Shown here piece after piece: positions 3,963 to 16,878 of a stretch of DNA of 37,290 nt (the first letter of the stretch is position 1; each line of letters begins with the position of its first letter). The stretch is from contig JAJZWV010000001.1 in the NCBI GenBank assembly GCA_021846505.1, positions 1 to 37,290 of the forward strand, written 5' to 3'. Below the pieces are notes generated by a model, which saw only the letters and a program-made list of their open reading frames with translations, had not been told where the DNA came from and ran no database searches. The stretch is from Bacillota bacterium. GTDB lineage: Bacteria > Bacillota > Sulfobacillia > Sulfobacillales > JAIMBI01. The position numbers and the translations under genes were made by a program.

Positions 3963-4652
3963 TTAACCGGGAGGGACCGGGCTCTCCCGCTGCTCCACCC
4001 GCTGGACGATGCGGCCCATGGAGCGCGCTTTGTGGTCCAGCGTGAGCCGCTCGGCCAGCGCGGCGTCGCGGGCGCTGAGCGCGTCCAGGATGGCTTCGTG
4101 CTCCTGGATGGAAGCCCACGTGCTGGGATCATTGCCGGTGAGGGGCGGCGGGTAGCGGCCTGAGTGATCCCAGAGGTTCTTCAAGATCTCCAGCAGCCGC
4201 TCGTTGTTGCAGCCCGCGTAAATCCGCTCGTGGAAGGCGCGATTGAAGCGATTGAGCTCGCCGACCGCATCGCCCCGCTCCACCGCCCCATGGAGGCTCC
4301 GGTTGATTTCCCGGGCCTCGGCCAGATCCGCGTCGGTGAGGCGCGGCGTCGCCAGCCGCACCGCGAGTCCCTCAAGCGCCATCCGCACCTCGAACAGCTC
4401 CCGCAGGTCGGCCGCGGACAGCGGGGAAGTGACCGCACCCACGTGCGGCTCAGTGCGGATCAGCCCCTCCTGTTGGAGCTGGTTCAGCGCTTCCCGCACC
4501 GGGATTTCGCTGGTCCCATAGTCCTCCGCGATCTGGCGGGTGACGAGCCGCGTTCCCGGAGGATATCGGCCCTCCAGGATGTCATGGCGCAAGCCGTTCA
4601 GGATCCAGTCCTTCTTGGTTTGAAACTGCCATGCTCCGGTCGTGCGCTGCAT
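3963..4652 (-). CDS. GntR-family regulator, FadR/FCD subgroup
   Basis: A 229-residue protein begins at ATG 4652 behind TTGGAGGTGG. Residues 14-75 form the GntR winged helix (ILEGRYPPGTRLVTRQIAED then VREALNQLQQEGLI). Residues 80-215 match the helical FCD ligand domain (LRELFEVRMALEGLAVRLA, FHERIYAGCNNERLLEIL, QEHEAILDAL). In FCD domains an Asp four residues before the first His usually binds metal; here that position is Asn (NRAFH), which may change metal or ligand preference. The gene is divergent from the aromatic-acid operon, and an 18-bp AT-rich site lies between them. The likely role is a repressor released by a pathway intermediate, and probably autoregulation. Confidence 0.88.
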   Translation of the reverse strand: MQRTTGAWQFQTKKDWILNGLRHDILEGRYPPGTRLVTRQIAEDYGTSEIPVREALNQLQQEGLIRTEPHVGAVTSPLSAADLRELFEVRMALEGLAVRLATPRLTDADLAEAREINRSLHGAVERGDAVGELNRFNRAFHERIYAGCNNERLLEILKNLWDHSGRYPPPLTGNDPSTWASIQEHEAILDALSARDAALAERLTLDHKARSMGRIVQRVEQRESPVPPG

Positions 4653-4688: not shown

Positions 4689-4706
4689 CTATATGATATA
4701 TAATGT
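4689..4706 (+). promoter_or_regulatory. Probable GntR operator overlapping the operon -10 box
   Basis: CTATATGATATATAATGT contains the inverted repeat TATAT-GAT-ATATA (4690-4702) and a perfect TATAAT (4699-4704) placed about 35 bases upstream of the SDR start. Sixteen of its 18 bases recur, inverted, at 9992-10009 before the MFS gene. Two AT-rich islands of this kind in GC-rich DNA, both in front of units of the same pathway and one beside the regulator gene, argue for a shared operator. A convincing -35 was not found. Confidence 0.65.
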
Positions 4707-4738
4707 CACAAACGCGGCTGAAGCAATGGAGGCTTTGT

Positions 4739-5680
4739 ATGTCGGAGCCCAAGCAGGACTTGGCCGAACGCGTCGCTGTCGTGACGGGCGGGGCGCGGGG
4801 CATCGGCTTGGCGGTGGCTCGGGCGCTTGGGGCCCGAGGGGCTCGCCTGGTACTCGCCGACGCAGGGCTCGACCCCGCCGGCCACCCCGAGAACCCGGAC
4901 GCGGCGTCCGACGCGGTGGCCGCCCTGGCGCGCGATGGCATTGTGGCGATCCCCTTCGCCGAGGTGCTGGGCACCCGAGAGACTGCGGAGCGCCTGGTGG
5001 CGTTCGCCACCGAGCACATGGGAGCCGTCGACATTCTGGTCAACAACGCGGCGATTCTGCAGGACCGCATGGTCTGGAACCTCACCCCTGCGGCGTGGGA
5101 CGAGGTGCTGGCCGTGAACCTCAGCACCGCCTTCTATCTGCTGCGGGCCGTGGCCGGGAACATGCGCGCGCGGCGGTTTGGCCGTGTGCTCAACATCGTG
5201 TCGTCGGCCGGCCTCATCGGCAACGTGGGCCAAGCCAACTACGGCGCCGCCAAGGGTGGGCTGGTGGCGCTTTCTCGTGTGGCGGCTTTGGACCTTGCCC
5301 GCTATGGCGTCACCGTGAATGCCATCGCGCCGTTTGCCCATACGCGCATCACCGACCTTATCGTACCCCACCACCCCGCTGTGGCCGAATACCTGGCCAC
5401 CGTTCGGGGCGTCGCCTCGCCAGACAGCGTGGGGGCGCTGGCCGCCTACCTCGCCACGGAGGAGTCCCAGGTGTACACGGGGCAAGTGTTCGGCGTGCGC
5501 GGGGGTGAGGTGTTCCTGTTTTCCGCGCCGCGTCCGGTCGGCGTGCAGCGGTCGCCGGCGGGGACGCTCACCGACCACGACCTGGCCGCCGCGTTCGCGC
5601 GCTGGGAGGAGCGAGGGCTGCTCACGCCGCTCGAGACCGATCTGGAGTACATGTCGCGTCCCCTCCCCCCCGACGAGTGA
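4739..5680 (+). CDS. Short-chain dehydrogenase/reductase, hydroxyacyl-CoA/diol type
   Basis: A 313-residue SDR begins at ATG 4739 with GGAGG seven bases upstream. The NAD(P) motif TGGARGIG lies at residues 17-24 and the NNAA motif at 102-105. The catalytic set is Ser155, Tyr168 and Lys172 (YGAAK). The sequence around NNAAILQDRMVWNL and the long insertions resemble the dehydrogenase units of multifunctional beta-oxidation enzymes and diol dehydrogenases. About 50 extra residues follow the core. As first gene of the operon, followed after 52 bp by a diiron oxygenase, it may rearomatise a dihydrodiol or epoxide-derived CoA intermediate, or oxidise an alcohol side chain. The substrate is inferred from context only. 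Confidence 0.82.
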   Translation: MSEPKQDLAERVAVVTGGARGIGLAVARALGARGARLVLADAGLDPAGHPENPDAASDAVAALARDGIVAIPFAEVLGTRETAERLVAFATEHMGAVDILVNNAAILQDRMVWNLTPAAWDEVLAVNLSTAFYLLRAVAGNMRARRFGRVLNIVSSAGLIGNVGQANYGAAKGGLVALSRVAALDLARYGVTVNAIAPFAHTRITDLIVPHHPAVAEYLATVRGVASPDSVGALAAYLATEESQVYTGQVFGVRGGEVFLFSAPRPVGVQRSPAGTLTDHDLAAAFARWEERGLLTPLETDLEYMSRPLPPDE

Positions 5681-5732: not shown

Positions 5733-6461
5733 ATGACCTATCCCGATCCCTTTGCCGGTCCGGTGGCGTCGGCCCGCGAGCTCTCCACCATGCCAGACGA
5801 CTACCAGGCCGCCGTGTCCAAAGTGGTGCTGAGCCACGCGGCCAATGAGATCACCGGAGCACAAACCTTTGACGAGCCTTCGATTCGGCTTGCGCCGACA
5901 CCGTTCTTCAAGTGGACCGCAAGCCGGGTGACCATGGAAGAGTACGGCCACCATATCCTGTTCTCACGTCTGGCCGACGAGCTGGGCCTCGACTGGCGCA
6001 CCCGCAAACCCCTAACCTTGTTCGACTTCCCACTTGTCAACTGGACACAGTTCGGAGTGGTGAAGGCGGTGGTGGACCTCGCGGAGATCATCCAGCTCGA
6101 GGATCTTATGGAGTGCTCCTACACACCGCTAAAGCAGATCGCGATTCGAACCATGCCCGAGGAGCGCTTCCACGTCGGCCTCGGCAAGAAAATCATCGAG
6201 GAGCAAATCAAGACGCCCGATGGGCGGGCCCAGGTGGAGGCAGCGCTCACCCCGCTCTTCCATGAGACCCTGGGGTTCTTCGGGCGCGCCGGCTCCGGCA
6301 ACAACGCGGTGTTCCGCCGCTGGGGGATCAAGCGCCGCACCAACGAGGCCATGCGCCGCGAATACGTTGTGCGGGTGAAGAAGTACGTGGACGAGATCGG
6401 GTGCACGCTGCCGGCCATCCCTGCCGCGTACGCCGACGAGCACCTTGAGGACGTGTGCTGA
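5733..6461 (+). CDS. PaaA/PaaC-like ferritin-fold diiron oxygenase
   Basis: A 242-residue protein begins at ATG 5733 behind a consensus AAGGAGGTG. It shows the bacterial multicomponent diiron pattern: Glu39, Glu70-x-x-His73 (EEYGHH), a middle Glu (123 or 127) and Glu144-x-x-His147 (EERFH). Placement and spacing resemble the catalytic PaaA subunit of phenylacetyl-CoA 1,2-epoxidase. PaaA normally needs the inactive partner PaaC plus PaaB and the reductase PaaE, and none of these is encoded nearby. The product overlaps the cupin gene by one base (TGATG). In context it probably oxygenates a CoA-activated aromatic acid made by the ligase two genes on. A different oxidase or hydroxylase role within the ferritin-like superfamily is possible. 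Confidence 0.75.
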   Translation: MTYPDPFAGPVASARELSTMPDDYQAAVSKVVLSHAANEITGAQTFDEPSIRLAPTPFFKWTASRVTMEEYGHHILFSRLADELGLDWRTRKPLTLFDFPLVNWTQFGVVKAVVDLAEIIQLEDLMECSYTPLKQIAIRTMPEERFHVGLGKKIIEEQIKTPDGRAQVEAALTPLFHETLGFFGRAGSGNNAVFRRWGIKRRTNEAMRREYVVRVKKYVDEIGCTLPAIPAAYADEHLEDVC

Positions 6462-7480
6462 TGAGCGCCGAGGACTTCGACCGGCGTCTCCGGGCCCAGG
6501 CACTCGGTCCGCTGTGGACCGTGCTGGCGGATGTGCTCACCCCGACCCCGCGCCCCCGAGAAGTGCCGTATGCCTGGCACTGGCCTGCGGTGCGCCCGCT
6601 GCTGTACGAGTCGCTCGAGCGGGTGAGCGCCGAGGAGGCGGAGCGCCGGGTGCTGGTGCTTCAGAACCCCGGCCTGCCTGGGCCGACCGCTTGCACCGAA
6701 ACGCTCTACGCAGGGATCCAGATCATCGGCCCGGGGGAGGTGGCTCGGACCCACCGCCATTCGCCCAACGCGCTTCGGTTCATCATGGAAGGGACCGGCG
6801 CCGTCACCACCGTGAGCGGCGAGCGCATTGCCATGGACCGGGGAGACCTGGTCACGACCCCGACCTGGACCTGGCACGACCACGGGAACGATGGAGACGA
6901 GCCGGTGGTATGGCTGGACGGCCTGGACATCCCACTGGTCCAATCGCTCTCCGGCATGTTCTTCGAGCCCTATTCTGAGCACCGACAGCCCGTCACCCTG
7001 CCGGCGGGCGACTCCCGGCATCGCTATGGGATGGGCTTCCGACCGGCATTTGAGGGCTTCCCGCATCCGTACTCGCCGGTGCTGTCGTATCCGTATCGGG
7101 AAGCGCGCGCGGCGCTGGCGGCCGTCGCGGCGGCGGAGCGCGGAAGCCCCTACGATGGGGTGCGGATGGAGTACACCAATCCGCTGTCCGGCGGATCGGT
7201 GCTCCCGACCCTGGACGCCTACCTGCAGTGGATACACCCGGGTGCGCTGCTCAAGCCCATTCGGCGCTCGTCCAGCAGCGTCTACCTTGGGGTCGAGGGC
7301 CACGGAGCGATCACCATTGATGGCACCGCGTTCCCCTGGGGCGTCAACGACGTCGTGGTCGTGCCCAGCTGGGCCGAGGTGCGGCATGAGAACCCAGGCG
7401 CCGAGCCGGCGGTGCTGTTTTCATTCTCAAACGCACCGGTGCTCACGCCGTTTGGTCTCTACCGCGAGAGTGGCGCATGA
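6461..7480 (+). CDS. Gentisate 1,2-dioxygenase-like bicupin
   Basis: A 339-residue protein starts at ATG 6461, overlapping the previous stop by one base. Its N-terminal cupin carries GEVARTHRHSPNALRFIMEG (His98, His100) and TPTWTWHDHGN (His139, His141). This is the iron-binding signature of gentisate and related salicylate/1-hydroxy-2-naphthoate dioxygenases. A second, degenerate cupin lies around residues 265-330 (GHGAITIDGTAFPWGVNDVVVVPSW). The length fits gentisate dioxygenases (about 340-390). Expected reaction: Fe(II)-dependent ring cleavage of gentisate to maleylpyruvate, in the cytoplasm. The neighbouring FAH-family hydrolase and maleate isomerase-like enzyme supply the next two steps. 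It overlaps the ligase gene by four bases (ATGA). The exact ring substrate within this family is not certain. Confidence 0.85.
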   Translation: MSAEDFDRRLRAQALGPLWTVLADVLTPTPRPREVPYAWHWPAVRPLLYESLERVSAEEAERRVLVLQNPGLPGPTACTETLYAGIQIIGPGEVARTHRHSPNALRFIMEGTGAVTTVSGERIAMDRGDLVTTPTWTWHDHGNDGDEPVVWLDGLDIPLVQSLSGMFFEPYSEHRQPVTLPAGDSRHRYGMGFRPAFEGFPHPYSPVLSYPYREARAALAAVAAAERGSPYDGVRMEYTNPLSGGSVLPTLDAYLQWIHPGALLKPIRRSSSSVYLGVEGHGAITIDGTAFPWGVNDVVVVPSWAEVRHENPGAEPAVLFSFSNAPVLTPFGLYRESGA

Positions 7481-9015
7481 TCACACGAGCAGACTACCGG
7501 CAGCCCCGGGGCGCCGCACTTGCCGAAACGGCCGCGGCGCCGCTCACGGTCCCCGGGCTGCTCGAGCGCTGGAGCCATGAACTGCCCGACCGCCCCGCCC
7601 TCCTCGCTCCCGACGGCGATCTTACCTGGCGGGAGCTGTCGGGGGCCGTGGAGCGGCGCGCCCGGGACCTGATCGCGCTTAATGTCGGCGCCGGCGACGT
7701 GGTCGGGCTGCAGAGCCCCAACACACGGCACGCGGTGGTAGACCACCTGGCCCTCGCCCGCTGTGGCGCGGTGACGGCGATGATTCACCGCCCTTACCCC
7801 GATCCCGAGGTGGCCAGGCTCGCACGCCTCGTCGACGCCCGCTTCGTTCTCCGCGACGGGCAGGTCCTCGGCGAGCCGCCCCGCGCATCGGGCACGGCAG
7901 CGGCCCCGCCAGCCCCGGACGACCCGCTCGCGGTGTTTTTCACCTCGGGCACGGAGGGTCCCACGCCCAAGGCGTGCCTCCACTCCCATACCGGCCTGCT
8001 GGGCAACGCCCTGGCCGTCGCCCGGGACATGCATCTCGAGCCAACCGATTCCCTCTGCACGGCGAGCGCGTTCACGCATCTGTTCGGCTACCTCGCGCTC
8101 CATCTCTCGCTGGTGTCCGGCGCACCGCAGGTGCTCATGGAGCGGTTCTCACCCGACAACCTCGTGCGCGTGACGAGTCGGGCGTCCGGGCCAGTGCTGT
8201 TCGCGGTGCCAGCCCACCTGTACGACCTGATGGGTGCGCCCAGCGCCCTGTCAGCGATGGCCGGCCGGCTCAAAGAGATCCGCAGTGCGGGGGCATATCT
8301 CCCGCCCACACTGGTGGACCGGGTGGCGAGGCGCCTGGGCGCACCGGTGGTGGCGCACTGGGGCATGTCGGAAATTGGGGCCGGGCTTCACACCCGCCGC
8401 GGCGACCCGCCGGAGGCGGCGTGCGAGACGGTGGGGCGGCCAGTCGGCGAAAGCCGCGTCCTCATCGTCGACCAGGGCCGGGTGATTCGGGAGCCGGGTC
8501 GCACCGGCGAGCTCCTGTTCCGCGGGCCGTCGCTGTTCTTGGGCTACTACGGGGATCCGGATGCGACGGATGCCGCGTACGCGGACGTCGATGGCCTGCC
8601 GTGGCTCCGGACCGGGGATCTCGCGGCGTGGTCGCCGGAGGGACTCGTACGGTTCCGCGGGCGCGTCAAGGACATTGTGAACCGCGGCGGGATGAAGGTG
8701 AGCGCGCAGGAGGTGGAGGCCGCGGTCGCGACGCTGCCGGTGGTCCGGCACGCGGCCCTGCTGGCGGTGCCCGATCCCCGGCTCGGCGAGCGGGGCCTCC
8801 TCGTGGTGAGCCTCCGCGCCGGTGGCGCACTGACGCTCGACGAGGTGCGCCGCCATCTTGACCAGCAAGGCATCGCTAAGTTCAAGTGGCCCGAGGCGCT
8901 CGAAGTGCTGCCCGAACTGCCGCTGACCGCGACCGGCAAAGTCGCCAAGGGGCAGCTGCGGACGGCCATGGGGCTGGCAGGGCGTGACCCGTGCCGCACG
9001 CGGGCGGCGGAGTGA
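7477..9015 (+). CDS. AMP-forming acyl/aryl-CoA ligase (ANL superfamily)
   Basis: A 512-residue ANL enzyme begins at ATG 7477. The adenylation loop FFTSGTEGPTPKA lies at residues 154-166 and the A5 motif WGMSE near 297. The LRTGDLA motif, the hinge VNRGGMKVSAQEVE and the C-terminal catalytic lysine motif TGKVAKG follow in the standard order. The look is close to aryl-acid ligases such as salicylate, dihydroxybenzoate or benzoate CoA/AMP ligases. It would activate the incoming acid to a CoA thioester. Translational coupling to the dioxygenase gene (ATGA overlap) puts it in the same pathway. Its presence is odd for a plain gentisate pathway, which acts on free acids, and suggests the oxygenation step upstream works on a CoA ester, as in salicyloyl-CoA or phenylacetyl-CoA routes. 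Confidence 0.88.
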   Translation: MITRADYRQPRGAALAETAAAPLTVPGLLERWSHELPDRPALLAPDGDLTWRELSGAVERRARDLIALNVGAGDVVGLQSPNTRHAVVDHLALARCGAVTAMIHRPYPDPEVARLARLVDARFVLRDGQVLGEPPRASGTAAAPPAPDDPLAVFFTSGTEGPTPKACLHSHTGLLGNALAVARDMHLEPTDSLCTASAFTHLFGYLALHLSLVSGAPQVLMERFSPDNLVRVTSRASGPVLFAVPAHLYDLMGAPSALSAMAGRLKEIRSAGAYLPPTLVDRVARRLGAPVVAHWGMSEIGAGLHTRRGDPPEAACETVGRPVGESRVLIVDQGRVIREPGRTGELLFRGPSLFLGYYGDPDATDAAYADVDGLPWLRTGDLAAWSPEGLVRFRGRVKDIVNRGGMKVSAQEVEAAVATLPVVRHAALLAVPDPRLGERGLLVVSLRAGGALTLDEVRRHLDQQGIAKFKWPEALEVLPELPLTATGKVAKGQLRTAMGLAGRDPCRTRAAE

Positions 9016-9054: not shown

Positions 9055-9978
9055 ATGCGGCTCTGGGTGTTTGACGAATGGCGGATCGGCGTGTCGGTCG
9101 GGGATGATCCCGAGTGGCTGGTGGACGTGACGGAGATGGTGCCCGGCGCCGGCAGCTGGCCGCCGGTGCACATGAATGCGGTGGTGGCCGACCTTCCCCG
9201 GCTGGGGCCGGTACTCGCGCGGCAGGCGCGGGAAGCGGGGCCAGACCGGCGGCGCCGCTTGGCGGATCTGCAGCTCTTGCCGCCGGTCCCATGGCCCAGC
9301 AAGATTGTGGCGGCCCCGGTCAACTATCGCCAGCACCGCGACGAGCTGTCTGCGGCCGGTGGCGTCTACGCCGGTCAAGACATCAAGACCGTGATGGACT
9401 ACGGTCTCTTCTTGAAAGCTCCGTCGTCGCTGATTGGGCACGGCGGCACCGTCCAGCTGCCGTTTGGCAACCGCCGCACCGATCACGAGGCGGAGATTGC
9501 GGTCGTGATCGGGCGCACCGCCCGCAACGTCCGGGCCGAGGACGCCATGGCCTATGTGGCCGGATTCTCCGGCCTCATCGACTTCACGGTTCGAGGTTCG
9601 GAGGACCGGCCGTTTCGGAAAAGCTTCGACGGGTTCACGCCAATGGGCCCCTGCCTGGTCACGGCAGACGAAGTGGCGGACCCGGGTCACTGGCGGTTCT
9701 CGCTCACCGTGAACGGTGCCGTGCGCCAGGATGGGTCCACCGAGCGGATGATCCTGGACTTTGCCCACCTGGTGAGCCTGGCGTCTTACCACACGACGCT
9801 CTATGCCGGCGACATCATCGCCAGCGGCACCCCGGAGGGAATTGGGCCCGTGGAGCCCGGCGACCGTGTGGAGCTTGAGGTCGCTGGACTCGGCCGACTC
9901 GCCGTGGGGGTGGACTCGGCGCCGGCACCTGCAACCGAGATCATGGGGGACTGGGCGGCTCCTTTTCAGAATCGTTAG
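9055..9978 (+). CDS. FAH-family hydrolase (probable maleyl/fumarylpyruvate hydrolase)
   Basis: A 307-residue protein begins at ATG 9055 after GAGGGAGG. The C-terminal two thirds form the fumarylacetoacetate hydrolase fold: PSKIVAAPVNYRQH (82-95), the metal-binding DHEAEIAVVIG block (Glu145, Glu147), Asp176 in LIDFTVR, and KSFDGFTPMGP. Members cleave C-C bonds of 1,3-diketo acids with Mg or Mn. Beside a gentisate dioxygenase and a maleate isomerase, the natural reading is hydrolysis of maleylpyruvate to maleate and pyruvate. The family also includes 2,4-diketo-3-deoxy-L-fuconate/rhamnonate hydrolases, so a second use by the fucose genes of this window cannot be excluded. It is the last gene before the second operator. 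Confidence 0.85.
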   Translation: MRLWVFDEWRIGVSVGDDPEWLVDVTEMVPGAGSWPPVHMNAVVADLPRLGPVLARQAREAGPDRRRRLADLQLLPPVPWPSKIVAAPVNYRQHRDELSAAGGVYAGQDIKTVMDYGLFLKAPSSLIGHGGTVQLPFGNRRTDHEAEIAVVIGRTARNVRAEDAMAYVAGFSGLIDFTVRGSEDRPFRKSFDGFTPMGPCLVTADEVADPGHWRFSLTVNGAVRQDGSTERMILDFAHLVSLASYHTTLYAGDIIASGTPEGIGPVEPGDRVELEVAGLGRLAVGVDSAPAPATEIMGDWAAPFQNR

Positions 9979-10067: not shown

Positions 10068-11504
10068 ATGGAGCGGACGGAAGCGAGGGGTCCCACCAGT
10101 CCGGGGCTGGTTCTGGCACGGTTGGACCGCCTGACCGTATGGTCGTTGCCTTACCTATTCATCGGGGTCATCGGGTTGGGGTTCCTGTTCACGTTCTACG
10201 ACATTTTCGACATCAACGTGTCGTTCATCCAGACCTGTGCCACCATTCAGCCGCACTGCACACCCGTGAACGCCAGCAGCTACCTTGGCCTCCCCGTGCT
10301 GATGAACCTGGTCGGGTATGTGATCGGGACACTGGTGCTGTCGCCGCTCTCCGACCGGTTCGGGCGGCGCGACATGTTGCTCGTGACGCTCGTCATCACC
10401 GGGCTCGGGTCGCTAGCCACCGCCGCCGTGACCAACATGGCGGGGTTCGTGCTGGCGCGGGCGGTGACCGGCATCGGCATCGGCGCCGACCTGGCCATCG
10501 TCAACACGTACATTAATGAGATCGCGCCGCGCACGGGACGCGCCCGGTACACGTCGCTCATCTTCATCATGTCCGCGCTGGGCGCGTTCGTGGGCATCTG
10601 GCTCGGCCTGCTGCTCACGACACCCGCGTCGCCGTTCCCGCTCGGCCTGCCCTTCGCCCAAGCCGGTCCGCACTTCGCGAACGGCTGGCAAGTGATGTAC
10701 ATCGTCGGCGCCGCACTGGCACTGGTGGGCGTGCTGCTGCGAGTGCAGCTGCCGGAGTCGCCGCGGTGGCTCATCAACCGGGGCCGCGTCGCCGAAGCGG
10801 ATCGGGTGGTGACCCAGATGGAGGCGATGGCGTCCCGCCGGATGCGGCTGGCGGACGTGGACGCGCCGGCCCCGGAGGAGCCCGCGCCGGCCGCGATTCC
10901 CTACACCACCATCTTCCGCAGTCCAACCTATCTCAAGCGGACGCTGCTGCTGCTGGCCATGTGGTTCGTCAGCTACGTGACCGTGTACGCCTTCGCGTCC
11001 GGCTTCACCACGCTCCTGGCCGGACTGCACTATCCACCGCCGGAGGCGGGCCTCATCGCCGCGTTCGGCACCATCGGCTTCGTCCTCTGCGCGGTTGTGG
11101 CCTACCTGTGGGGCGAGCGTCTGGAGCGGAAGCGATGGCTGCCGATCTCCGCCGTGCTCACGCTCTTGGGCGGGGTCGTCGTGGCGGCCGCCGGGCAAAC
11201 GTTCTGGATCGCGGTGGTGGGCTCGATGGTGGTGTTCTTCGGGTTCAACCTGTGGGTGCCTATCGCCTACAGCTGGTCGACCGAAAACTACCCGACCCGC
11301 GCCCGAACCACCGGCTTTGCGCTGGTGGACGGCATCGGCCACCTGGGCGGCGGCATCGGCATCCTGGTGATTGCGCCCCTCATCCCGTACATGAACGTGC
11401 TGGAGGCATTTTTGCTCATCGGCCTCTTCCTGGTGGGGGGTGCCGTCATCGCGCAATTTGGCCTCAACACGCGCGGGCGCCTGCTCGAGGAGCTGTCGCC
11501 CTAG
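10068..11504 (+). CDS. MFS transporter, aromatic acid/sugar-porter type
   Basis: A 478-residue, twelve-helix permease begins at ATG 10068 after GGGAGG. It shows the MFS signature after helix 2 (SPLSDRFGRRDM, residues about 94-105) and a helix 4 stretch VTGIGIGADLAIVNTYINE. The matching motif YPTRARTTG appears in the C-terminal half. An acidic first helix (FYDIFDINVSF) is like that of aromatic acid:proton symporters and NiaP-type carriers. Acting in the cytoplasmic membrane, it most likely imports the aromatic acid consumed by the upstream operon. It has its own promoter region with the second copy of the shared operator and is followed by the maleate isomerase gene after a structured gap of about 105 bp. 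Confidence 0.85.
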   Translation: MERTEARGPTSPGLVLARLDRLTVWSLPYLFIGVIGLGFLFTFYDIFDINVSFIQTCATIQPHCTPVNASSYLGLPVLMNLVGYVIGTLVLSPLSDRFGRRDMLLVTLVITGLGSLATAAVTNMAGFVLARAVTGIGIGADLAIVNTYINEIAPRTGRARYTSLIFIMSALGAFVGIWLGLLLTTPASPFPLGLPFAQAGPHFANGWQVMYIVGAALALVGVLLRVQLPESPRWLINRGRVAEADRVVTQMEAMASRRMRLADVDAPAPEEPAPAAIPYTTIFRSPTYLKRTLLLLAMWFVSYVTVYAFASGFTTLLAGLHYPPPEAGLIAAFGTIGFVLCAVVAYLWGERLERKRWLPISAVLTLLGGVVVAAAGQTFWIAVVGSMVVFFGFNLWVPIAYSWSTENYPTRARTTGFALVDGIGHLGGGIGILVIAPLIPYMNVLEAFLLIGLFLVGGAVIAQFGLNTRGRLLEELSP

Positions 11505-11610: not shown

Positions 11611-12372
11611 GTGGCCCCCACCCGAATCGGCCTCATCGTTCCCAGCTCCAACGTGACCATGGAGACGGAGCTGCCGCAAATTTTTGGCCGTGAATCCGGT
11701 GCCTTCAGCTTCCACTCGAGTCGGGTGCGCATGCGAACGGTGCGGCGCGACGAGCTCGAGGCCATGAACGCGCAGATGGACCGCGCGGTGGAGGAGCTGG
11801 CCGACGCGGGCGTGGATGCCTTAGCGTACGCGTGCCTCATCGCGCTGGCCGTCGAAGGGCCGGGGGCCCACGAGCGCGCGGAGCGACGCCTTCAAGAGAG
11901 GGCACGGGCGCGCGGGCTTTCGGGGCCCATCGTGTCAAGCTTGGGTGCGCTGCTGGCCGAGCTCGACCGCCTCTCTGCCCGGCGGGTGGCGCTGGTGGCG
12001 CCGTACCTGCCCGAGCTGACCGGTGCCGTGATCCTCTATTTGAAGAGCTGCGGAGTTGAGGTGGTCGACGCCGTGAGCCTCTCCGTAGCGAACAATCTTG
12101 AGGTGGCGGCCTTGAATCCTGCACGGCTTCCGGACCACGCGAGGCAGCTCAACCTCGCAAGGGCCGATGCCGTCGTGCTGTCGGCGTGCGTGCAGATGCC
12201 ATCGCTGTCCGCGATCGCAGAGGCCGAGCGAGTCACCGGCCTTCCGGTGGTCACGGCGGCAAGCGCCACCGCGCTCCAGTTGCTGCGCGCCCTCGGTCAC
12301 GAACCCCGGAAGGTGAGCGCGGCATCTACTCCACCACGGCTGGACGCCGGACCTAGCTCGACTTCCGGGTGA
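11611..12372 (+). CDS. Maleate cis-trans isomerase-like enzyme (Asp/Glu racemase superfamily)
   Basis: A 253-residue protein starts at GTG 11611, ten bases after AAAGGAGG. The N terminus RIGLIVPSSNVTMETELP is the standard opening of maleate isomerases. The two catalytic cysteines of the fold appear as Cys75 (LAYACLIAL) and Cys193 (SACVQMPSL), almost exactly where characterised maleate isomerases have them (76 and 194). Arylmalonate decarboxylases share the fold but usually have one Cys. Expected reaction: maleate to fumarate in the cytoplasm. It completes a gentisate route in which maleylpyruvate is hydrolysed directly. The last 20 or so residues (SAASTPPRLDAGPSSTSG) are low-complexity and could reflect a late frameshift. 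Confidence 0.82.
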   Translation: MAPTRIGLIVPSSNVTMETELPQIFGRESGAFSFHSSRVRMRTVRRDELEAMNAQMDRAVEELADAGVDALAYACLIALAVEGPGAHERAERRLQERARARGLSGPIVSSLGALLAELDRLSARRVALVAPYLPELTGAVILYLKSCGVEVVDAVSLSVANNLEVAALNPARLPDHARQLNLARADAVVLSACVQMPSLSAIAEAERVTGLPVVTAASATALQLLRALGHEPRKVSAASTPPRLDAGPSSTSG

Positions 12373-14478: not shown

Positions 14479-16316
14479 CTAGTGATGCGGCTTGGGCCCA
14501 CCCGGCGGCGGCGCAGGCGCTGGCGGCGGGCCGGCCGGCGGCGCCGGGTTGGCCTTCGGCACGAAGGGTTGGATGGCCGCCATCATGTTGGCTGTGTTAA
14601 AGGTCCCGAGCCCGGTGTTGTAGTTGTAGCCCGGGGTTTCCGGGTACAGCCCATTGAAGCCCGCCGTGGGGGCATGGAACGCCGGCGTCGAGCAGATGTA
14701 CTCCAGCGTGGTGGCGTCGGTCTGGCAGGTGCCGCTCATGTACACGTCGTACAGCACCGGGGCGGCAAAGCCCAGGCGGTTGCCGTAGGCCGACTCAATC
14801 CGGGCCCACACGCCCAAGGCCAGCGGCGCGGACAGGCTGGTGCCGCCGACCCCGATGAACCCGCCGTTGCTTTGGCTGTAGACGTTGGCCCCCGATTCCG
14901 GGTCGGCGTCCATTGCCATGTCCGGCACACCCCGGTCCCCGGTGGTGCCGGCAGTCACCGGCAGCACTTCCTGCTGCCAGTAGGGCGCAGTCTCAAACTG
15001 GCTGATGCCGCCGCCGCCCGCGTTCCACGACAGCTCCTGATCGTAGGTGCGGTTGGAGTTCGTGAGGAGCGTCGTCCCGCCGACGCCCACGACATAGGGC
15101 GAGGAGGCGGGGTAGTTGACCATCGGGAGCCCGGAGTCCGGCACGCCGCTGGTGGGCGCCACTGCGCAGGTCGCGCCGGTGTCGCCGGCGCTGGCCAAGA
15201 CCGTCTGCCCCTGGGCGGCGGCCTCCGCGAAAATCTCGTCGTCAATGACCATGGAGCCAACCAGGTACGGATACGCCTCACACTCACCCAGCGACGCGCT
15301 GCCGGCCTTGGCCAAGTCCTGGCTCGCAAACAAGTTAAACGCCCGCGCCAGGTCGGAGTCGGTCAGCGAGGTGGTGTCGTAGAAGTAGTAGTGGGACACG
15401 TTCTGCGCCATGCCGGACGAGAACTGGCTGTCCAAGTCCCACTCCAAGTTGCCGGTGGTGGAGGGGCTCGCCAGCCCAACTTGCTCCACCGTCAGCGGCA
15501 CTTGCGGCAGGTTGTTGAGCTTCTCCTCCGTCCTGAGGTTCTGGATCGGGTTCGTCAGATTGCCTTGGGCAAACGTTGCAATCGCCGTCTTCGAGCCGGT
15601 CGGCTGCCCCACGGCCTGATACGCCTTCCAGAAGCCCTGCGGCGAGTACTCGTGCGGGTAGTTTGGCAGGCTGGTTGACGTGGTGGATGACGCCTTGATA
15701 GGCGCCGCTGTGAACTTGAATGCGCTGTTGAGCCCCAAGACGGCAACCACCACGCCGCCCAGCGAGCTCGGCACCATGGCCGCGCCCGTGTTGGCGTAAA
15801 CCGTCTGGCCGTTCAGGCTGAAGTTCGCGATGGCAGTGTCAAACGCGCGCTCGGCTTCTGCCACCGTGCCGCGCGCGGTCACCAGCAGGCGATTAGACGA
15901 CACCGACACGCGGGAGAACCCCTGCCGGGTTAGATACTGTGACACAGAATCGGCCGCGGCCCCGTCGGGCCATAGGTGGCCGTGAACTGCGACGGCGTGT
16001 AGGTGTCGCCGAAGGACGGCGAGCTGGGGTTCGACGCATCCGCGATGAAGTGGGACAGCGCCGTCGGGTTCTGCAGAGCCAATCCCACCGTAATGCTGAT
16101 CGGCGTGGATCCCGCAGTGGGTCCTAGATTGGTGGCGGAGCTGAACTGCACCACCTTGGTCGCGGTGGGAGCCCAAGTGCTCGCCGCATTGGCGGTCGCC
16201 GGCTGCAGCACCGTGGTCATCGCGGCCAGGGCCAAGCTGCCCGCCACCGCTAGGCCGCCGCGCCACCCGGCCCAGTTCGGCAAGGACACGCGCGCCTTCG
16301 TCCTGTTCGTTCTCAC
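14479..16316 (-). pseudogene. Sedolisin/kumamolisin-type S53 peptidase, frameshifted
   Basis: The gene starts at GTG 16316, seven bases after AAGGAGG. It encodes a signal peptide (Lys/Arg-rich start, then GGLAVAGSLALAAMTTVLQ and cleavage near ANA-AS) and a pro-domain start that ends abnormally after TATYGPTG. The continuation AAADSVSQYLTRQGF lies in the next frame, which then runs to 14479. One missing base in the C-run at 15960-15963 explains it. Downstream are the sedolisin features: E-x3-D (EWDLD), the oxyanion Asp in ASAGDTG and the nucleophile in GGTSLSAP. The C terminus is proline-rich (PPAGPPPAPAPPPGG). Restored length is about 612 residues, normal for the family: secreted acid-active endopeptidases. 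A sequencing error cannot be excluded. Confidence 0.85.
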
Positions 16317-16878
16317 TCTTCATCCTCCTTGATCAGGAGTCGTATGTGCATGAGAGCCCGACACATCGGGGATGGCTTCTGGCCGCACGGACCTGCGGCG
16401 GGATCTGCGAGCTTCATCAATTACTTCGCGGGCCTCTCGCCGAAGTGGGAGTCGTCCAGGCGAAGGACCATTTTGTCGACTGAGGCGCGTGAGTAACACT
16501 AACTGGCGAGGACGCCGTTTCCATGGCAAGCCGACCTCAGGGAGCCGAGAGTCATTCAGAAAGAGAGGGAGAGCTGCCACGGTCGCGGCACAGGCTGTCC
16601 AGGGCGCTCGCTGCAAGCAGCGGCGGCCAGCCCCACCGCGGTGGGTGCAAAGGGGTTCTCCATCGCAAGTCAATGCTCACCGGCTTCGCAGCAGCGCGCC
16701 CGCGAGACCACGTCCGAGTGAGCCGCGAAATCAAAGGAGCGGCAGCGCTGGCCGGTGAGGCGAAATCGCTAGGCGTGAGCGGAACTGGATCCTGCCGTCA
16801 CCCTAAACCTCGACGGCTGCGGCTACGTGGCACCGATAGCCCCGCCACGATCAGGTTTGCCACGATGCTGCAAAGGGA
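16317..16878. other. 560-bp region without a gene
   Basis: It contains the AAGGAGG of the S53 gene and presumably its promoter on the minus strand, then about 500 bases where only Arg/Ser-rich frames occur. The minus-strand neighbour on the far side is the D-threonine aldolase-like gene, whose stop lies at 16879. No repeat, RNA gene or terminator with a T-run was recognised. Confidence 0.4.

Follow-up and report, generated by a model that had tools for sequence, protein, structure and literature searches.

The locus studied here raises the question of whether a PaaA-like diiron oxygenase can act apart from the PaaABCDE system and supply a gentisate pathway. The gene lies in a stretch of 37,290 nucleotides (contig JAJZWV010000001.1; hereafter the window) from a Bacillota bacterium of the order Sulfobacillales. 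A preliminary description of the same DNA had placed it in a CoA-ligase/gentisate operon, and the family and PDB matches confirmed this operon (Table 1). In our study, we consider it fairly probable, from sequence comparison, that the oxygenase is a PaaC-independent diiron enzyme of a CoA-dependent route to gentisate.

Table 1. Features of the window operon and its regulator (positions in the window).
Feature	Position	Strand	Evidence
GntR/FCD-family regulator, divergent from the operon	3963–4652	−	PF07729, 104 bits; PF00392, 57 bits
SDR with C-terminal extension, (3R)-hydroxyacyl-CoA-dehydrogenase-like	4703–5680	+	PDB 2et6 best
Stand-alone PaaA-like diiron oxygenase	5733–6461	+	PF05138, ligands, predicted fold, tree
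Gentisate 1,2-dioxygenase (bicupin)	6455–7480	+	TIGR02272; PDB 2d40
Acyl/aryl-CoA ligase (ANL family)	7477–9015	+	PF00501, 192 bits
FAH-family hydrolase, probably maleylpyruvate hydrolase	9055–9978	+	PDB 6jvv, E 5e-55, full length
MFS transporter, aromatic acid/H+ symport type	10068–11504	+	TIGR00895, 140 bits, under cut-off
Maleate cis-trans isomerase-like protein	11611–12372	+	PDB 2xec, E 3e-56; 4fq7, E 3e-52

The oxygenase frame encodes 242 amino acids, begins with ATG and is preceded by AGGAGG. It is a real gene and not a chance frame, because the family match lies far above the cut-off, the operon genes overlap and the protein recurs with 79–93% identity in two other genomes. The oxygenase scored 96.6 bits against Pfam PaaA_PaaC (PF05138; gathering cut-off 28.5), which places it in this superfamily, and 83.7 bits against NCBIfam PaaA TIGR02156, under the equivalog cut-off of 280. 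When the oxygenase was aligned with relatives and with PaaA of E. coli, its iron ligands were E39, E70, H73, D115, E144 and H147, which correspond in the same order to E42, E72, H75, D126, E155 and H158 of E. coli PaaA (PaaA ligand list from PMC4498308). All six were invariant in the 33 stand-alone relatives aligned. The ligand pattern described earlier thus held for E39, E70xxH73 and E144xxH147, but its middle ligand is Asp115 and not a glutamate. E118 was invariant in the window clade and in the type-A relatives described below; the aligned residue of PaaA is Ala129. The lysine bridge of PaaA (Lys68-Glu49-Glu72-Asp126) was absent, with Lys68 aligned to Val66, which is adjoined by a conserved Arg65, and Glu49 aligned to Phe46. 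The stand-alone relatives contained Val, Ala or Ile at the Lys68 position (Thr in type B) and Phe or Tyr at the Glu49 position, and none of those aligned contained Lys or Glu at these two positions. Canonical PaaA identity was ruled out by the score, the missing lysine bridge and the tree position. BoxB identity was ruled out as well, since the oxygenase had no match to TIGR03225 at E 0.001 (242 amino acids against 471 model positions).

The AlphaFold2 model of the oxygenase (pLDDT 91.5) matched the folds of PaaA from the 1,2-phenylacetyl-CoA epoxidase PaaABCE (Z ~26, rmsd 2.5–3.0 over ~230 residues), SSO1313 of Sulfolobus (PDB 4mud; Z 25.4, rmsd 1.8 over 213 residues), PaaC (Z 21.7) and the benzoyl-CoA 2,3-epoxidase BoxB (Z 21). 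The oxygenase shares with PaaA the PF05138 fold, all six iron ligands and Phe108 (F97 in the oxygenase); unlike PaaA, which has ~310 amino acids and is ~25% identical, it is short, has no adjacent PaaB or PaaC and lies in a gentisate cluster where PaaA has paa genes. SSO1313 belongs to the same size class but shares only 19% identity, and is an uncharacterised PaaA-like protein whose entry title gives no function. BoxB resembles the oxygenase as proposed here in being a single-subunit diiron aryl-CoA oxygenase of related fold, whereas it has ~470 amino acids, is served by the reductase BoxA and leads to the hydrolytic opening of a non-aromatic ring. The preliminary description had regarded a single-subunit aryl-CoA oxygenase that feeds a gentisate-type route as new biochemistry; for single-subunit aryl-CoA oxygenation as such this was overstated, as BoxB is already monomeric and PaaC-free (PMC4498308). 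In the reading preferred here, the novelty relative to both PaaA and BoxB lies in how CoA chemistry, a diiron enzyme that is small and PaaC-free, a nearly constant SDR and gentisate cleavage are combined.

The genes of the operon are tightly packed, with a gap of 52 bp between the SDR and oxygenase genes and overlaps of 7 bp (oxygenase/dioxygenase) and 4 bp (dioxygenase/ligase). The SDR contained a glycine motif at 29 and YxxxK at 180. By far its closest PDB match was the (3R)-hydroxyacyl-CoA dehydrogenase 2et6 (E 1.3e-62; runner-up E 3.5e-40), which suggests a CoA-bound beta-hydroxy compound as its substrate. The dioxygenase scored 377.8 bits against TIGR02272, under the cut-off of 442, a point against the preferred reading, although its closest solved relatives are gentisate dioxygenases (2d40, E 3.6e-88). 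The nearest aromatic PDB entries of the ligase were salicylate-AMP, 2,3-DHB-AMP and 4-chlorobenzoate-CoA ligases, and its alignments were compatible with several aromatic acids without singling out one. Cys75 and Cys193 were present in the isomerase-like protein, for which arylmalonate decarboxylase was rejected (E 1.6e-4 only, against far stronger maleate isomerase matches). Since the closest matches are to maleylpyruvate hydrolase and maleate isomerases, the operon would encode a coherent, glutathione-independent gentisate route to pyruvate and fumarate. No thioesterase gene was found in the window operon, which counts against the preferred reading. A 4HBT-type hot-dog thioesterase (G000:C65:38794-38997, L053) was present ~1.5 kb past the window end, one of eight 4HBT-type matches in the window genome.

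Orthologues of the oxygenase were found in 4 of the 42 genomes of the order, with identities of 100% (window), 93% and 79%, and with two copies of 59% in G009. The first G009 copy is accompanied by genes for a ligase and a GntR regulator and by a divergently oriented gene for a 4HBT-type thioesterase, and the second adjoins a PaaX-family regulator. The SDR was not seen beside either copy, both being on short contigs, and this also counts against the preferred reading. Gentisate dioxygenase homologues were present in 17 of the 42 genomes. A FAD monooxygenase, first met beside the same operon in G038, was found in 8 of the 42, all of them dioxygenase-positive, and in none of the four genomes holding the PaaA-like gene. 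The FAD-monooxygenase operons were of varying completeness, with a GntR gene beside most of them. Their identities with the window proteins were 67–70% for the transporter, 36–45% for the ligase, ~50% for the FAH protein, 48–56% for the GntR regulator and 40–63% for the dioxygenase; neither the PaaA-like gene nor the SDR was found in those examined. Because these genes are shared and a FAD monooxygenase is found instead of the oxygenase and SDR, the latter two appear to occupy the place of a flavin hydroxylase in the operons of relatives. The chance of all four PaaA-like genomes being dioxygenase-positive was 0.02 and that of zero overlap with the flavin enzyme was 0.05, both figures being based on small numbers of related genomes; three of the four PaaA-like genomes belong to one genus, which makes the exclusivity statistic weak. 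A phylum-wide sample of 398 Bacillota genomes gave no further family member at E 1e-19. A second flavoprotein, adjoining a FAD-monooxygenase operon (L068 2011-4793), was near 3-hydroxybenzoate 6-hydroxylase (395 bits, cut-off 459).

The profile search of 385 alphaproteobacterial genomes gave matches of at least 302 bits in 27 genomes, followed by a gap down to ~140 bits. Twenty-three of these genomes (23/385, about 6% of the sample) contained type A. In every type-A locus, the genes for a Fe2S2-FAD-NAD reductase, for the same SDR as in the window and for the oxygenase followed one another in that order on one strand. The gentisate dioxygenase was close by in 17 of the 23 loci, nearly always directly downstream (that of L148 scored 565 bits against the TIGR02272 cut-off of 442), and an FAH protein and a 4HBT-type thioesterase were near the oxygenase in 10 and 5 loci, respectively. 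Type B was represented by five loci, mostly with the reductase and two of them with a ligase that exceeds the cut-off of the benzoate-CoA ligase family; no SDR or gentisate dioxygenase was found at these loci, which are possibly another aryl-CoA route without BoxB. They include L154-L156 (oxygenase and reductase) and that of G438 (L173 6224-14376), where the oxygenase and reductase are accompanied by a benzoate-CoA-ligase-family gene, an aldehyde dehydrogenase, a thiolase and two ~130-aa proteins. In the tree, the window clade grouped with type A (support 99/95) and type B was their sister (99/94), with PaaA (99/99) and PaaC (100/100) apart; the deep joins, which have long branches, are less certain. 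The same core is thus shared by further Bacillota and many Alphaproteobacteria and looks like a real degradation route. Judged by size and composition, some of the alphaproteobacterial hosts appear to be small, low-GC genomes of marine type. Plasmid records queried with the window, type-A and type-B proteins gave, among the matches listed, only matches of 25–31% to other family members.

An all-helical protein of ~185 amino acids was found near the oxygenase in 17 of the 23 alphaproteobacterial loci (e.g., L160 10049-10597 and L148 6582-7160). It contained a conserved G[RH]WPL motif near the C terminus (model pLDDT 93.8) and had no Pfam, NCBIfam or confident fold match. The cluster protein c5, considered as a thioesterase or oxygenase subunit, matched no family in Pfam or NCBIfam and no solved fold with confidence, and a 155-aa protein of the alphaproteobacterial loci, considered as a thioesterase, is a MarR regulator.

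Since the relatives encode a Fe2S2-FAD reductase alongside the oxygenase, the enzyme probably works with a reductase and is not reductase-free. The window genome comprises 3.58 Mb and is 96% complete. No PaaB, PaaC, PaaD or PaaE is encoded in the window, as had been stated in the preliminary description, so that the oxygenase is not encoded with PaaB and PaaC. The genome contained four PF05138 proteins, namely PaaA and PaaC of contig C85, a PaaA-like protein of contig C53 and the window oxygenase. The genes paaA, paaB, paaC and paaD lie on C85 (L016 6331-8959). A complete paaABCDE using the window oxygenase, for which a genome search had been proposed, was not found; the C85 set has its own PaaA (390.5 bits against TIGR02156) and no PaaE. 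The search for a PaaE-type reductase found none in the window genome and was positive in nine control genomes; a relative of the alphaproteobacterial reductase was likewise not found there, in a search without a positive control. As regards the electron donor, both absences count against the preferred reading. Because neither reductase was found, a different kind of ferredoxin system may supply the electrons for the two oxygenase systems encoded here. The phenylacetyl-CoA epoxidase of the lineage, with paaABCD on C85 and no recognisable PaaE anywhere in the genome, itself lacks an obvious electron donor. The C53 protein (L015 6543-7520; G000:C53:34542-35519) is a second stand-alone PaaA-like protein of 325 amino acids (137.8 bits against the PaaA cut-off of 280); its gene lies downstream of lipoate and 2-oxoacid dehydrogenase genes, is kept in the genus and belongs to a clade different from that of the window protein.

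The genes present, their conservation, the ligand residues and the predicted fold were observed, and from them we infer the CoA-ester substrate, ring position, step order and SDR role of the following route. The transporter would import an aromatic acid, of which the ligase would form the CoA thioester. The PaaA-like oxygenase, with electrons from a transfer protein whose gene lies in another part of the genome, would put one O2-derived oxygen into the ring of the thioester, and the SDR would work on the oxygenated CoA intermediate. Gentisate would be freed by thioester hydrolysis, either by a hot-dog thioesterase or spontaneously; gentisyl-CoA is cleaved spontaneously in the Streptomyces salicylate route. 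The dioxygenase would then give maleylpyruvate, the FAH protein pyruvate and maleate, and the isomerase fumarate, and these lower steps are based on closer homology than the upper ones. The proposed route resembles those of SdgC (salicyloyl-CoA 5-hydroxylase) and PhgABC (4-hydroxybenzoate to gentisate) in CoA ligation, ring hydroxylation of the thioester and gentisate release. The SdgC and PhgABC routes use FAD monooxygenases, whereas the window contains a diiron enzyme and an SDR. Precedents for a gentisyl-CoA intermediate are found in SdgC (PMC13215587) and in the CoA route of PhgABC (PMC7862547).

A hydroxybenzoyl-CoA (salicyloyl-, 3- or 4-hydroxybenzoyl-CoA) is somewhat favoured as the substrate by analogy, because the transporter and ligase are shared with the flavin-type operons, and flavin enzymes of this type normally require a phenolic ring. 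The SDR is superfluous for simple phenol hydroxylation, which counts against the preferred reading, and its conservation favours a non-aromatic beta-hydroxy intermediate and thereby perhaps benzoyl-CoA. In such a version, to which we give a low probability, the oxygenase would epoxidise benzoyl-CoA, and water would convert the epoxide into a ring diol. The SDR would then oxidise the hydroxyl that stands on the ring in beta position to the thioester, and the ring would regain its aromaticity as gentisyl-CoA, both enzymes together achieving a net dihydroxylation. This version is favoured by the resemblance of the SDR to (3R)-hydroxyacyl-CoA dehydrogenases, since in such a CoA ester the hydroxyl at ring C2 is in the beta position, by its retention beside the oxygenase in two phyla and by its absence from the FAD-monooxygenase operons examined. 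No BoxB over the cut-off was found in any genome of the order, and the type-B relatives lie near ligases of the benzoate-CoA ligase family. However, this version needs a 1,4-opening, which is unproven chemistry, and neither an epoxide hydrolase nor a hydratase gene was found; the window ligase had no benzoate-CoA-ligase-family match among the matches listed, and the transporter and ligase shared with the flavin relatives point to a phenolic substrate. It is doubtful that the oxygenase represents one more class of diiron ring oxygenases for CoA esters, PaaC-free and working with a Fe2S2-FAD reductase and SDR, that converts benzoyl-CoA to gentisyl-CoA. If true, epoxidation, hydration and re-aromatisation of benzoyl-CoA would join hybrid CoA chemistry to oxygenolytic gentisate cleavage. 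The oxygenase set would also be a gene candidate for the aerobic benzoate route through benzoyl-CoA and 3-hydroxybenzoyl-CoA, to which, to our knowledge, no genes have been assigned. This route was reported in 1993, according to a title cited in PMC8388817.

Two further explanations appear quite improbable. The oxygenase might be a second kind of PaaA, which takes its PaaC and PaaB from the C85 set and forms a normal heteromeric epoxidase with another substrate. PaaB, PaaC and PaaD are indeed encoded in the window genome, where a shared PaaC is conceivable, PaaC-like genes are also present in three sampled relatives (G002, G004 and G009), and E. coli PaaA needs PaaC for solubility (PMC4498308). 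The oxygenase clade is, however, apart from PaaA in the tree and the lysine bridge is missing; moreover, of two alphaproteobacterial genomes, G438 contained a type-B member as its only PF05138 protein, and G437 contained four, including a type-A member and none of them PaaC (the fourth, L105, classed by its sequence), the completeness of neither genome being given. The SDR and oxygenase might instead serve a separate step, such as the oxidation of the side chain or ring of a different acyl-CoA, and merely share the operon with an ordinary gentisate pathway, in keeping with the likeness of the SDR to beta-oxidation dehydrogenases and with the type-B relatives, which have reductase, ALDH and thiolase genes and no gentisate dioxygenase. 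The frequent company of gentisate dioxygenase at the distant type-A loci argues against such a separate step, as does the absence of thiolase and hydratase from the operon. The earlier proposal of a PaaA-like oxygenase that acts on a CoA ester independently of PaaABCDE and feeds gentisate cleavage is supported by the conserved operon partners, the FAD-monooxygenase swap and the family members in genomes without detectable PaaC.

If the preferred reading, a PaaC-independent oxygenase on the way to gentisate, is true, the PaaA/BoxB family would have a third catabolic role, in which CoA-bound aromatics are primed for gentisate cleavage as opposed to hydrolytic ring opening. Two phyla have kept the gene set, and such loci would usually be annotated merely as 'phenylacetic acid catabolic protein'. 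No paper on this gene cluster was found among the open-access papers searched. For humic-rich Arctic waters, a marine survey places gentisate dioxygenase among the most abundant genes of ring cleavage (PMC9789639), so that an unrecognised upstream enzyme would change the reading of those genomes. The oxygenase would also provide a small system, possibly of one subunit, in which diiron aryl-CoA oxidation that lacks the lysine bridge can be studied. Elsewhere in the window, a long frame at 14479–16323 on the minus strand was found, and its translation resembles, by eye, a kumamolisin-type S53 peptidase.
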